The notes below the pieces were generated by a model. It had not been told where the DNA came from and ran no database searches. It saw only the letters and a list, made by a program, of their open reading frames with translations. From an uncultured Eubacteriales bacterium (GTDB lineage: Bacteria; Bacillota; Clostridia; Peptostreptococcales; Anaerovoracaceae), in contig CACZAM010000017.1 in NCBI GenBank assembly GCA_902779185.1, positions 1-37,473 of the forward strand: a stretch of 37,473 bases of DNA, in the 5' to 3' direction. A program made the position numbers and the translations under genes. Of this stretch, positions 20,617 to 25,274 are shown piece after piece (within the stretch, counting starts at the first letter, position 1; every line of letters starts with the position of its first letter).

Positions 20617-22512
20617 CTATGGACTGATGTAATTTCTCGGGTTCTGTGAAACATCGTTCACTCTTACCTCAAAGTGACAATGGCTTCCGAAGCTGTGTCC
20701 TGTATTGCCGACATTAGCTATATGCTGCCCCTGGTACACCAGATCTCCGATGCTTACAAACACGGCGCTGCAGTGGGAGTATCTCGTGACCACCCCGTTG
20801 CCGTGGTCGACCTCTACGCACAGGCCATGACCCGACCAGTAGTTGGCCTTGATGATCTTTCCGCCGTCAGATGCGTGTATAGGTGTACCTGTTGGCGCGG
20901 CGAGATCCATTCCTTCGTGCATGCGACCCCATCTGCCGCCCCATTCAGACGTTACTACATAGTTATCAAGAGGCACTATGAATGTTCCGGTCGCGGCGGT
21001 CTTAGGTCTTTCGGCCGTGCCGACAAGTATGATTTTGTCCTTCTTTTTCCTGATGATCTCCGGTTCAGCCGTCTCTTTTCTGTCAGTGACCTCTCCTCCG
21101 ATCTTGGTGATCTCACCCTCAAAGATCTGCACTCCGTCCTGACCTTCCTGCTCAAGGAAGGAATCGCCCTTATAGTACTCGTCAGTCTCCTTCTTTATTG
21201 TCTTGAACTCAATGATTTCCTTGAGTTTGCCTTTCTCGACCATCTGTACGCTGACCGGAGAGACGTTGTTTCTTATGCAGACTCTGTCGCCTGTTTCGAC
21301 TTCAGTGACCTGCTCCTTGTTGCTTTCATCGTATATTTCGAAATCCTCAACCCCGAATTCCGCCGCAAGGCTCTGGACGGTCTCGCCTTCCTCGACGATA
21401 TGATAAGTATTCATCAATCCGCCTTTCGTCATCTGCTCCTGCGCAGCCGCATTGCTCTGAACGCTTCCGAGGAGCACGTTGACCGGCTTTACTGAAAGCT
21501 CGTTGGTGAAATCCGCGGATACGAGTTCCATTCCTCTGTCCGGTGTAGAAAGATCGGCCTTGGTCTGGAGCAGGAGATTGTCAGCGTCATTCTGGTCCTT
21601 CACGATGGCAACCACCTTGTCGCCATCGTACACCGCATAAGCCTCCGTCTCAATATCCGTCATGTAAATCAGCTTGTTGACGACCGTATCAGAGTCGTCA
21701 GTACTTTTTCCTCTGCCGTCTACAGGATTGAATGTCACGTTCTGGTTTGCCACGAACTTTACGTCCGCCTCAGTGCTGCTGTTGTATGTGAGCTGTCTGC
21801 CGGCAACATCGAGAACATCGGTGACTTCCTCCTGACTGTTTACATATCCGAGCACCTTTCCGTTATAAGCGTATTCGTATACAGTGAACATGTCGAATAC
21901 TATGAGGATGGCGGTGATCACCATTCCCGTGATCAGGATGGCAGCACCTATGCCGCGCCTGGTATTGCTGTAGGCATCGCTGATCCTGTGAGCTCCCCTG
22001 ATGACATCCTTTCCCACCTTGACGAATGCTCCGTCGATGCCGTCCTGGACTTTATCGTGAACATTCATTACCGATGCGAAAGGATCCTTGCCGCGTCTCA
22101 GGAATTTCTCCTTGCTTCTGGCCTTGGCTTCCTCTCTTTTCCGGATCTTTTCAAGGGCTGCAGCTTTCCGGGCTTCGCTCTTTTTATCCTCGTTATCTGG
22201 CTTTTTCTGCTCAGTGCCTTCTTCAGCCTCTGATGCTTCCTGTGACTTCGGATCCTCCTTTGCAGGAGACTCTTCCATCGCATCCGCAGGAGCGTCTTCA
22301 GAGCTGACGCCGGCTTCCTCATCTTCTGCAGGATCTTTCTCGTGGAGTTCGATATCGTTGTCCCTGAGGTATCTCGCGTACGCCAAAGCTGCCGCTCTCA
22401 TCTGACTTTCATCGAGCGCGGGCATCGCTTCTTCATTCGCGGGCTGAACCTCTTCAGCTTCTGTGTTAATTTCTGTATTTACTGTTGTTTTTTCTGTTTC
22501 GTTAACTGTCAT
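20617..22512 (-). CDS. Membrane-anchored M23 peptidoglycan metallopeptidase with LysM and G5 domains
   Basis: A 631-residue cell-wall hydrolase. Order: long acidic Glu/Ala-rich cytoplasmic region (1-185), one membrane helix (about 188-208), a region resembling domains that precede G5 in clostridial endopeptidases (about 215-360), LysM (369-413, peptidoglycan binding), G5 (about 414-490) and the M23 LytM-type domain (about 510-631). Zn ligands are His532 and Asp536 (HEGMD) and His613 (HCHFE), with His580 and His611 catalytic, so it looks active. It would cut peptide cross-bridges during growth or division, which fits the FtsB-like gene 27 bases downstream. Its start directly follows the dnaD-like stop (TAAATG) without a strong ribosome site. 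Confidence 0.9.
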   Translation of the reverse strand: MTVNETEKTTVNTEINTEAEEVQPANEEAMPALDESQMRAAALAYARYLRDNDIELHEKDPAEDEEAGVSSEDAPADAMEESPAKEDPKSQEASEAEEGTEQKKPDNEDKKSEARKAAALEKIRKREEAKARSKEKFLRRGKDPFASVMNVHDKVQDGIDGAFVKVGKDVIRGAHRISDAYSNTRRGIGAAILITGMVITAILIVFDMFTVYEYAYNGKVLGYVNSQEEVTDVLDVAGRQLTYNSSTEADVKFVANQNVTFNPVDGRGKSTDDSDTVVNKLIYMTDIETEAYAVYDGDKVVAIVKDQNDADNLLLQTKADLSTPDRGMELVSADFTNELSVKPVNVLLGSVQSNAAAQEQMTKGGLMNTYHIVEEGETVQSLAAEFGVEDFEIYDESNKEQVTEVETGDRVCIRNNVSPVSVQMVEKGKLKEIIEFKTIKKETDEYYKGDSFLEQEGQDGVQIFEGEITKIGGEVTDRKETAEPEIIRKKKDKIILVGTAERPKTAATGTFIVPLDNYVVTSEWGGRWGRMHEGMDLAAPTGTPIHASDGGKIIKANYWSGHGLCVEVDHGNGVVTRYSHCSAVFVSIGDLVYQGQHIANVGNTGHSFGSHCHFEVRVNDVSQNPRNYISP

Positions 22513-23910
22513 TTACGCCTTTTCTTTATCCGCGTGCCATCTGTATGCTTCCGCAGCGCGTTCCCTGCAGCAGCTGCACACCATACCCTCGTCCGTGTAA
22601 CCGGTGTCCCTGCAAATGCTGCACCTGAACTTTCTTGTCAGGTAATCAGCCGGGAAGCCGTTTCCGGTGAGTAACTGTTTTCTTCCTTCTTCTATTGCTA
22701 TTCTTTCAGCCCTCAGCCTCTGTCTGGCATCCAGGTTATCCGAACCCGGTCTGAGCGAAAGCATCTTTGAGTTGACTCTGCTCTCCGCTTCGAATACCGC
22801 CTTCATCTCCGGCACCTTCCTGAGGACTTCCTCTATGCGCGCTTCACGCGCTTTCTCGTCTTCACTTCTTATATATTCGTAATAGTCTGCCAGCACCTTG
22901 CGGCTCACCGGACTGCCTTCACCGGCCGCTGCAGAATCGCCAGAACCGTTCTGATTGCTGTCTTTCGGGAGTCTGGTATTGACGCCGCCCTTCTCAAGGC
23001 GCCGATTTTCTATTACCTTGTTTACATATTTCAGGTTCGGTTCCCTGAGTCCCGCTGCTGCCGAGCACGCATCGAGCACTTCCGCAAGCGAGCAGTTTAG
23101 CTCATCAAACCATCTGTCCATGATCTCACGGTCTATCGGCGCAGGCAGCCTGTTGAAACCAAGCGCCCTGAACACCTGCCTGTAGCAGTCGTTCCTGCGG
23201 CTGTGTCTGTCCAGCAGTCTCTTGGCATCCTCGATCGTGCGGCATCCGTCCTCTGTCCATCTCAGCGCCACCTTGAAGATATAGTCGATGCTGTACTTCT
23301 CCAGATCAGCACAGTAGTCAATCGCAAAATCAAAGATTTCAGGCTCAATGCCGTACACCTTTATTGCGTCCTCTATCTTGGATACCTCCTGCCTGGAGAT
23401 TGTCCTTCCCGTGGTGACCTGATATTTCTCATAGAGCTCGCGGAGACGTCTGTCGATGAGCTTGTCGTTTATGACCTCGTCGAACTCCATGTCGTCTATA
23501 GAAACATATAGCGGCAGCTCTTCCTCCGCCGGCACAGCATCCGTTTCCTGCGCAGCTTCCGCCTGCGGCTCTGCCATCTTTCCGTAAAGCTCATCTATCT
23601 TGCTCAGGAAAATCACATGGCTCACTTCTTCATTGTTGCTGTCCGTTTCGCGCACTATCTTTACCAGACCTCTGGATTCCCAGTATATCCAGGCTTCCGC
23701 GATCTCGTCCACGCTGAGGCCGAGCAGCCTCGAGAGCTCTTTCCTGTCAGGCTTGAGATCATACTGTGCATGCATGAGCCCGAAAAGGAACACCTTAACA
23801 TAGTCTCCCGGCGCGTCCGGAAGGTATTCACTTATGAACAGATTCTCTATCTTGGTCCTGTGGAGAAAGATGTCCTTTCCCTTGTCCAGCGACAGTCTGA
23901 CCTTTGTCAT
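22513..23910 (-). CDS. DnaD-like replication initiation protein fused to a DnaC-type N-terminal zinc domain
   Basis: A 465-residue protein. Residues about 15-110 are a DnaD N-terminal winged helix; about 150-232 and 242-305 are two DnaD/DnaB-II (DDBH2) helical domains, the first with the YxxxxxWxxxG-like end (YIFKVALRWTEDG). Residues about 335-465 match the N-terminal half of clostridial DnaC/DnaI-type helicase loaders, ending in FPADYL and a zinc site CSIC-x11-CSC (Cys430, 433, 445, 447). The AAA+ ATPase that normally follows is missing: a stop comes at residue 465 and the next frame is the M23 peptidase. In Clostridia dnaD-like and dnaC genes are usually adjacent, so this looks like fusion plus loss of the ATPase. 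It lies five bases after dnaB, consistent with helicase loading. Confidence 0.88.
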   Translation of the reverse strand: MTKVRLSLDKGKDIFLHRTKIENLFISEYLPDAPGDYVKVFLFGLMHAQYDLKPDRKELSRLLGLSVDEIAEAWIYWESRGLVKIVRETDSNNEEVSHVIFLSKIDELYGKMAEPQAEAAQETDAVPAEEELPLYVSIDDMEFDEVINDKLIDRRLRELYEKYQVTTGRTISRQEVSKIEDAIKVYGIEPEIFDFAIDYCADLEKYSIDYIFKVALRWTEDGCRTIEDAKRLLDRHSRRNDCYRQVFRALGFNRLPAPIDREIMDRWFDELNCSLAEVLDACSAAAGLREPNLKYVNKVIENRRLEKGGVNTRLPKDSNQNGSGDSAAAGEGSPVSRKVLADYYEYIRSEDEKAREARIEEVLRKVPEMKAVFEAESRVNSKMLSLRPGSDNLDARQRLRAERIAIEEGRKQLLTGNGFPADYLTRKFRCSICRDTGYTDEGMVCSCCRERAAEAYRWHADKEKA

Positions 23911-23915
23911 AGCTC

Positions 23916-25274
23916 TTACTCTCTTGCCATGTTGCCGAATTTTACGTATCTAGGGATCCATGTCAGATTAGCTATTCCGACCGGACCGTTTCTGTGCTTT
24001 GCTATGTTGACAGCGCAGGTGAGACCCGTGCTGTCGTCGATATTAGCTCTTTCATCTTCGGAGCTGTAATAGTCGTCTCTCTTCAGGAAAATGACTACAT
24101 CGGCATCCTGCTCGATAGCTCCGGAATCTCTCAGATCGGACAGCTTCGGCATGTGATCGCCTCCGCGCTGTTCCGGGCCTCTGGAGAGCTGTGACAGCAG
24201 TATCACCGCGCAGTCAAGCTCCTTGGCCATGATCTTGATGGATCTTGTGATGGCAGCGATCTCCTTCTCACGCTGCTCTATCCTGTAGCCGCCCATGCTC
24301 ATGAGCTGCAGGTAGTCTATGACGACCAGATCGAGGTCTCCCTTCTCCTGCTTGAAACGGCGGCATTTGTTCTTCATCTCGACAGGAGTGATCACCGAAG
24401 ATTCGTCGATGACCATGTCGAGTCCGTAAAAACTGTCCTGAGCGGCGGAGAGATCTTCCCACTCCTCCATGGAAATGTTTCCCTTGTGGATGTTCTCAAG
24501 AGGAACGCTCGAAGTCATTGAAAGAAGTCTTTCACCAAGCTGTGTGTTGGCCATCTCAAGGCTGAATATCATGACTTTTTTGCCCACGGACGCCGCGTGT
24601 TCCGCCACGTTCAGTGCCCATGCAGTCTTGCCTACACCCGGTCTCGCAGCCAGTATTATGAGGTCCGTCTTCTGGAAGCCGCCGAGGATCTTGTCGACGT
24701 CCCTGAAGCCGGTCGGAATGCCTTTGTCGTTGCCGTTTTTCTCCAGTTCCTGGAGCTGCTTGATGTTCTCGAAGAGCACATCGTTGACATCAACGTAATT
24801 GTTGCGCTGAGACTTATGCGCGATCTCAAGGATCCGCTGTTCGGCATTGTCGAGTATGTCTTCAGGCGGCAGTTCTGCGGAGTAAGCCGCGTCCCTTATC
24901 GCCTCTGCCTCTGTGATGAGCTGCCTCATCTTGGACTTGTCCGATACAGTCTCTGCATAATAGCGGGCATTCGAAGGAACGATGGCCTCGTCCATCAGCC
25001 TGCTCAGATATGTGATGCCGCCCACCATGTCGGCGGTCTTTCTCTGCTTCAGAGCCGAATAGACTGTAGTTATATCAATGCCTGTACCTTTCTGCTCCAT
25101 GTCGAGCATGGTCCTGTAGATCTCCTGATGCTCCTTGAGATAGAAGTCCTCAGGTCTCAGCATGGCATTGACATCAGCCCTCGCGTCCTGATTTTTAAGC
25201 ATGGAACCCAGTACCGCTTTCTCGGCTTCTATATCCACCGGCGGAAGCAGCACATCTTTTCTTTCTTCGTCCAT
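23916..25274 (-). CDS. dnaB: Replicative DNA helicase DnaB
   Basis: A 452-residue hexameric 5'-3' helicase that unwinds DNA at the replication fork. N-terminal primase-binding domain (about 12-115), linker helix, RecA-like motor (about 180-445) with Walker A ARPGVGKT (210-217), LDLVVIDYLQLMSMG (Walker B) and SQLSRGPEQR. Length is standard (the B. subtilis equivalent is called DnaC). No intein. One base separates it from rplI and five from the dnaD-like gene; AAGGCGG upstream serves as a ribosome site. Confidence 0.97.
   Translation of the reverse strand: MDEERKDVLLPPVDIEAEKAVLGSMLKNQDARADVNAMLRPEDFYLKEHQEIYRTMLDMEQKGTGIDITTVYSALKQRKTADMVGGITYLSRLMDEAIVPSNARYYAETVSDKSKMRQLITEAEAIRDAAYSAELPPEDILDNAEQRILEIAHKSQRNNYVDVNDVLFENIKQLQELEKNGNDKGIPTGFRDVDKILGGFQKTDLIILAARPGVGKTAWALNVAEHAASVGKKVMIFSLEMANTQLGERLLSMTSSVPLENIHKGNISMEEWEDLSAAQDSFYGLDMVIDESSVITPVEMKNKCRRFKQEKGDLDLVVIDYLQLMSMGGYRIEQREKEIAAITRSIKIMAKELDCAVILLSQLSRGPEQRGGDHMPKLSDLRDSGAIEQDADVVIFLKRDDYYSSEDERANIDDSTGLTCAVNIAKHRNGPVGIANLTWIPRYVKFGNMARE

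Follow-up and report, generated by a model that had tools for sequence, protein, structure and literature searches.

A DnaD/DnaB-type initiation protein fused to the N-terminal domain of DnaC without an AAA+ motor: a candidate ATPase-free helicase loader of Anaerovoracaceae

In helicase loaders of the DnaC/DnaI type, the AAA+ motor binds single-stranded DNA, docks on partner initiation proteins and restrains the loaded helicase. It is an old question whether this motor is needed for the opening of the helicase ring or only for timing and restraint. In DnaI of Bacillus subtilis, the N-terminal zinc domain contacts and holds the helicase; the AAA+ domain contains a cryptic site for single-stranded DNA and is the part through which DnaB(Bsu) reaches DnaI (PMC13326638, PMC3791466). 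In C. difficile, the protein CD3653 has the domain layout DDBH1-DDBH2-DDBH2 (PMC5204125). A few species are reported to contain neither dna[CI] nor dciA (PMC5109545).

The window analysed here is a stretch of 37,473 nucleotides from an uncultured Eubacteriales bacterium of the Anaerovoracaceae (assembly GCA_902779185.1, contig CACZAM010000017.1, forward strand). It contains a gene in which a DnaD/DnaB-type initiation protein and the N-terminal domain of a clostridial DnaC are joined in one reading frame and the motor is absent.

Architecture and neighbourhood of the fusion gene

The fusion gene starts with ATG and its reading frame is open throughout (Table 1). Profile scans assigned residues 159-230 to the DnaD domain (TIGR01446 DnaD_dom, 2e-13), residues 161-230 to PF07261 (DnaB_2, 4.4e-19, matching in two stretches) and residues 340-456 to positions 9-126 of the 330 positions of NF005304/PRK06835 ("ATP-binding protein", 2.8e-18), the clostridial DnaC model. 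The remaining positions of NF005304, comprising its AAA+ part, are missing, and the protein stops nine residues past the match. As in DnaD/DnaB(Bsu) initiation proteins, a DDBH1 winged helix and DDBH2 domains (PF07261/TIGR01446) are present. The N-terminal Cys4 domain of clostridial DnaC, expected of a DnaC/DnaI loader, was found as well; an AAA+ domain with Walker motifs was not found in the gene by profile scans. PF05258 (DUF721, DciA) did not match the protein up to an E-value of 1. All 56 aligned members (56/56), scanned individually, matched both TIGR01446 and NF005304, thus the fusion is not a chance event.

The first-pass annotation had described the gene as DnaD fused to the zinc domain of DnaC with loss of AAA+, and had pointed to a CSIC-x11-CSC motif preceded by FPADYL. 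Both motifs are in the protein, FPADYL standing ahead of the Cys4 motif, and the fusion, the Cys4 domain and the missing motor were likewise confirmed. The N-terminal part, however, has the layout of B. subtilis DnaB and not that of DnaD; since this DDBH1-DDBH2-DDBH2 arrangement is found in B. subtilis DnaB and in C. difficile CD3653, "DnaD" is better read as "DnaD/DnaB-type". Judged by its four cysteines, the C-terminal domain probably binds zinc.

Table 1. Coordinates of the fusion gene, its parts and its neighbours in the window, and of three fusion loci in family f50. Split DnaC: DnaC encoded by a frame of its own.
Feature	Position	Strand	Evidence
Fusion gene, 465 aa, DnaD/DnaB-type initiation protein + DnaC N-terminal domain, without AAA+	22513..23910	(-)	ORF and profile matches
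DDBH1 winged-helix domain, aa 1-110	23581..23910	(-)	
First DDBH2 domain, aa 161-230	23221..23430	(-)	PF07261
Second DDBH2-like domain, aa about 233-310 (boundaries set by eye)	22981..23214	(-)	PF07261 matching in two stretches; predicted helices 226-308; dN/dS 0.038
Linker at fusion point, aa 311-338	22897..22980	(-)	pLDDT <50 at aa 309-331; dN/dS 0.311
DnaC-type N-terminal domain, aa 339-465	22516..22896	(-)	NF005304 positions 9-126; domain model; dN/dS 0.107
Cys4 motif C430-x2-C433-x11-C445-x-C447	22570..22623	(-)	Cysteines invariant in 56/56 and 65/65 aligned members and in 36/36 split DnaC
dnaB, replicative helicase, 5 bases upstream of fusion	23916..25274	(-)	TIGR00665, 7.4e-145
G5-domain M23 peptidase gene, directly after fusion	20617..22512	(-)	PF01551, 1.7e-28; context
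f50 fusion locus L255	2677-3900	(+)	
f50 fusion locus L256	3559-4866	(-)	
f50 fusion locus L257	3883-5142	(-)	

The AlphaFold model of the whole fusion protein reached a mean pLDDT of 81.8 and a pTM of 0.38. Its predicted winged helix aligns with the N-domain of DnaD (2v79) and its predicted helical domain with the DDBH2 structures 2zc2 and 2i5u. More helices are modelled up to residue 308, followed by low confidence at residues 309-331. The C-terminal domain is predicted to consist of three long helices, the four-cysteine loop and a final helix, with a mean pLDDT of 86.6 when modelled alone. For this domain, no solved structure was matched by sequence or by fold; no DnaI chain appeared among the fold matches, which excludes nothing. 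Pfam DnaI_N did not match the window protein, two split DnaC proteins or four other fusions.

As stated in the first-pass annotation, the end of dnaB lies five bases upstream of the fusion and the next gene encodes a peptidase. The first base of this M23 peptidase gene directly follows the fusion stop, so that no remnant of a motor can lie between the two genes. A sequencing error or a truncated gene was ruled out on the same ground and because 104 of the 109 family genomes are alike. Among the best 80 of 284 fusion loci, dnaB precedes the fusion in 76 (the other four start at a contig end), and a similar M23 peptidase protein is encoded near the fusion in 68. Instead of a short gap, 235-365 bases separate the end of dnaB from the fusion match in 13 loci, including that of Emergencia (L133, L169, L170, L176, L177, L180, L181, L182, L190, L192, L193, L197, and L198).

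Distribution of the fusion and of separate loaders

The family of the window, Anaerovoracaceae by its named members, is denoted f1, and f9 is a related family of the same order. A search for the same fusion across relatives, as proposed in the first-pass annotation, matched 104 of 109 f1 genomes, from 87 of 91 genera, and all three f9 genomes (3/3); it was matched in all 60 f1 genomes that reach 90% completeness and do not exceed 5% contamination. The DnaD part and the DnaC-N part lie in one frame in 102 of the 104 matching f1 genomes, and in the other two (G145 and G113) the fusion is broken over two contigs. Internal stops were listed in seven of the 104 genomes and were rejected as interruptions: each is the regular stop of the gene, behind the Cys4 motif, and in these seven genomes the two parts share a frame and AAA+ is not matched. 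No fusion match was obtained in the f1 genomes G097, G127, G132, G135, and G166 (60-89% complete) nor, within the genus of the window, in G010 and G021, the latter being 92% complete and 7% contaminated. The DnaC-N domain was matched in 44 of 47 genus genomes and was missing from G021, G010, and G063 (counted from the listing). The loci named in this work are the best 80 of 284, of which 55 and 64 entered the alignments A2 and A3, respectively. Among these 80, the closest records belong to Mogibacterium sp. and Clostridiales, many of them from ruminant gut; Emergencia timonensis and Mogibacterium kristiansenii, placed by NCBI in the family Anaerovoracaceae, are also included.

Three genomes of family f50, from the same class and another order, carry a DnaD/DnaC-N fusion in frames of 408-436 aa without AAA+ (Table 1). 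These genes are located beside SbcC/SbcD-like genes (YhaN/YhaO-like, by reading), a neighbourhood that differs from that in f1, and no dnaB match was found at the three loci. The C-terminal domain was matched in seven of nine sampled f50 genomes, two being without a match, and three of the seven were read. In a tree of 59 loci calculated from the DDBH and DnaC-N pieces, all f1 and f9 fusions formed one clade (support 99-100); f1, f9, and f50 each had a support of 100, and the f50 fusions were placed among the split families, apart from f1 and f9. The trees are unrooted, they were calculated from the two proteins that also define the trait, and locus L238 was left out of both. A single origin of all fusions was rejected, as f50 did not group with f1 and f9. 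On the tree made here, fusion with loss of the motor arose at least twice.

Selection on the kept domain was assessed with 14 sequences (the window and 13 close relatives; 91 pairs, 67-82 of them usable per region). The median dN/dS was 0.107 for the DnaC-N domain versus 0.311 for the linker, and 0.108, 0.054, and 0.038 for the three DDBH domains; the values are rough because the pairs are near synonymous saturation (dS about 1). The kept DnaC-N domain is under purifying selection. The residues C430, C433, C445, C447, D435, G437, and G442 are identical in 23 of 23 fused rows from three families. Split DnaC N-domains share 20 conserved positions as far as the last cysteine; 16 of these are each retained by 12 or more of 17 f1 rows, the exceptions being positions 340, 363, 373, and 410. 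Past the last cysteine, split DnaC continues toward the AAA+ domain; there, positions 450, 452, and 456 are retained in 4, 0, and 7 of the 17 f1 rows and in 0, 1, and 0 of three f9 rows, respectively, and in no f50 rows.

Full DnaC above the curated cut-off was found in none of the 47 genus genomes, none of 11 f1 and three f9 genomes, and none of the 10 genomes behind named loci. The genome of the window itself, which is 79% complete, did not contain a complete DnaC/DnaI above the cut-off. In the other families of the order, full DnaC was found above the cut-off in 70 of 74 genomes; G200, G206, G208, and G222 from families f5 and f7 (G206 being 97% complete) had none above it. A model of the DnaC AAA+ domain found no match in 80 fusion loci (best 80 of 284) up to 6 kb on each side; as a control, it found its target in its six source split loci and in all of 31 other split loci. 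The split form was seen in 21 of 21 loci from ten other families, in which a DnaC frame with N-domain and AAA+ domain comes after the DnaD-like frame at a distance of at most about 100 bases, and the two frames often touch or overlap. These 21 loci, and 16 more, were chosen for matching the DnaC N-domain.

DciA (PF05258) was found in none of the 109 f1 genomes. It was found above the cut-off in one of the 47 genus genomes, G005, in a frame that is cut by the contig end (L100:2-508 (-)) and lies beside genes of a branched-chain amino-acid ABC transporter (by reading). The GC content at this locus (0.517) resembles that at the fusion locus (0.511), and the frame may or may not stem from contamination. 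Given these counts, DciA as a replacement loader was rejected. The first-pass annotation had named a complete DnaC/DnaI elsewhere in the genome and relatives in which an AAA+ part follows in frame as evidence that would speak against its reading, and had proposed a search for dciA. Neither of the former came to light in the genomes and loci given above, and the only DciA-like frame above the cut-off is the one at the contig end in G005.

Relocation of the motor within the genome of the window was rejected, as its only PF01695 hit above the cut-off adjoins an IS21-type transposase (by reading). Within the genus, PF01695 scored highest in G031, where the hit also adjoins an IS21-type transposase (by reading). 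In the genome of the window, an IS21-type transposase (by reading) stands beside an istB-like frame of only 202 aa (L001:2169-3500 and frame G000:C2:156042-156596). Two DnaA-sized frames of 453-470 aa matching PF01695 were observed in each of G003 (C31 and C8), G015 (C22 and C41), and G029 (C24 and C18), and are possibly two DnaA paralogues. Finally, a short divergent DnaC was observed in family f2 (L237 and L238, from G047 and G058), with frames of 321 and 312 aa that scored 232 and 223 bits, little above the cut-off (215 bits); perhaps this is another loader on its way to reduction.

Proposed function and alternative explanations

The spread of the fusion, the absence of full DnaC and of DciA from the family genomes searched, the linkage to dnaB, the kept positions, the dN/dS values, the two origins on the tree and the published precedents all argue for a loader without its own ATPase. 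We therefore propose, with modest confidence, that the fusion is probably the chromosomal helicase loader of Anaerovoracaceae and f9, with loader and co-loader in one ATPase-free chain. The DDBH1-DDBH2-DDBH2 part would bind DnaA and single-stranded origin DNA and would oligomerise, like B. subtilis DnaD/DnaB, and the C-terminal domain, formerly the N-domain of DnaC, would grip the DnaB helicase and help in opening the ring. The contact of this domain with DnaB is assumed by analogy with Bacillus DnaI. The covalent tether may substitute for the AAA+ motor: if the helicase-holding domain is fused to a co-loader that binds DNA and DnaA, the AAA+ link would not be needed for delivery. Loading would be powered by binding energy and by the ATP cycle of the helicase itself, and the fusion may be released upon binding of single-stranded DNA or primase. 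In the first-pass annotation, the gene had been read as a possible ATPase-free loader as well. That motor and DciA were not found and that the architecture is conserved and under selection supports this reading in part, whereas loading without an ATPase is a step that we infer, as are the binding of DnaA and DnaB, ring opening and release.

A loading step without a loader ATPase is plausible because, in E. coli, the helicase-binding domain of DnaC on its own stimulates DnaB unwinding almost as much as whole DnaC does (PMC8213410). This is a precedent of principle only, since the N-domains of DnaI and E. coli DnaC are not homologous (PMC3791466). Further observations count against an ATPase-free loader: ATPase mutants of E. 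coli DnaC stimulate DnaB much more weakly (PMC8213410), the loader alone is insufficient in C. difficile and primase is needed (PMC5204125), and an IstB/DnaC-like ATPase is present in 12 of 20 f1 genomes (by frame length; see below). In the case of the E. coli mutants, an inactive motor could be worse than none.

A second explanation, which we regard as possible and rather unlikely, is that the fusion acts as a recruiter only. It would bring DnaB to the origin, and the AAA+ domain of DnaA, primase or the helicase would open or hand over the ring. This would fit with DnaA being, among AAA+ proteins, the nearest relative of DnaC that remains in the two single-contig genomes checked, with the direct contact of DnaB(Bsu), a DDBH protein, to DnaA (PMC13326638) and with the primase requirement of helicase activation in C. 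difficile (PMC5204125). Against it, the retained piece is the whole clostridial DnaC N-domain, and the E. coli helicase-binding domain, though non-homologous, stimulates DnaB on its own (PMC8213410). Weighing the precedents against the E. coli mutants, the non-homology and the need for primase, we prefer the ATPase-free loader.

It appears improbable that another, unrecognised ATPase or a non-homologous loader performs the loading and that the fusion is an accessory co-loader. The homology search covered DnaC/IstB and DciA models, by which novel loaders would be missed, but the motor appears to have been lost in the same way in two lineages. Moreover, in the single-contig genomes G158 and G165, every PF01695 hit up to an E-value of 0.001 was DnaA, PhoH, Lon or a sigma-54 regulator.

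There is very little to recommend a supply of the motor in trans by DnaC-like ATPases of prophages or other mobile elements. In 20 more complete f1 genomes, the PF01695 search listed an IstB/DnaC-like protein besides DnaA in 12 and none in eight (by frame length); two of these eight are the single-contig genomes G158 and G165. DnaC-like ATPases of 281-335 aa do exist in G142, G131, G082, and G103, the four examined among the 12, and in G022, which came from the genus search, but in all five the nearby genes are of phage or plasmid type (RusA, RepA_N, serine recombinase, RecT, and terminases). Least credible of all is a vestigial C-terminal domain in cells whose helicase loading needs no loader: the motor is gone, but the dN/dS of the domain is far below that of the linker and its four cysteines, D435, G437, and G442 are invariant across three families.

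Significance and comparison with known systems

If the fusion is indeed an ATPase-free loader, cells could do without the loader motor where the helicase grip is attached to the initiator scaffold. It seems that the motor was removed twice in evolution and that the helicase grip was kept, and neither DciA nor full DnaC was found in the larger of the two groups. Because there are isolates, among them Emergencia timonensis and Mogibacterium kristiansenii, the question of what the motor is for can be tested with a few purified proteins. Our analysis suggests a new way of starting chromosome copying in a family of gut bacteria, and the fusion adds a lineage to the map of helicase loaders (PMC5109545). 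The first-pass annotation had considered the arrangement undescribed, and no description of the fusion was found in the accessible portions of open-licence papers. Within the same portions, what was not found in print is the combination of a DnaD/DnaB-type protein with DnaC-N and the route by which an AAA+ loader is stripped to its grip. Whether this represents a further class of chromosomal loader, in which a DnaC grip sits on an origin-binding co-loader in one ATPase-free chain that evolved at least twice in Clostridia, is finely balanced, and we lean only slightly towards it.

The functional class as such is known already, from the ATPase-free loaders DciA, lambda P, and DopE. SPP1 G39P is a further loader without an AAA+ motor. 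To our knowledge, lambda P, SPP1 G39P, and DopE contain neither DDBH domains nor a DnaC-type Cys4 domain. Lambda P and DopE are described as loaders without an AAA+ motor in PMC13326638. DciA (DUF721) is likewise a chromosomal helicase operator without an AAA+ motor; its domain is different, and PF05258 was the profile that matched in none of the f1 genomes. The B. subtilis proteins DnaD and DnaB(Bsu), which act with DnaI, have the DDBH1 and DDBH2 folds in common with the fusion. In B. subtilis the tail of DnaB(Bsu) binds the AAA+ domain of DnaI, whereas the fusion has lost this domain and has a covalent link instead. The clostridial pair of DnaD-like protein and DnaC/DnaI, represented by CD3653-CD3654 of C. 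difficile, has the same kind of DDBH1-DDBH2-DDBH2 protein and the same kind of DnaC N-domain, encoded by neighbouring genes. In C. difficile the two parts are separate proteins, with the AAA+ motor on DnaC, whereas in Anaerovoracaceae they have become one protein and the motor is gone.
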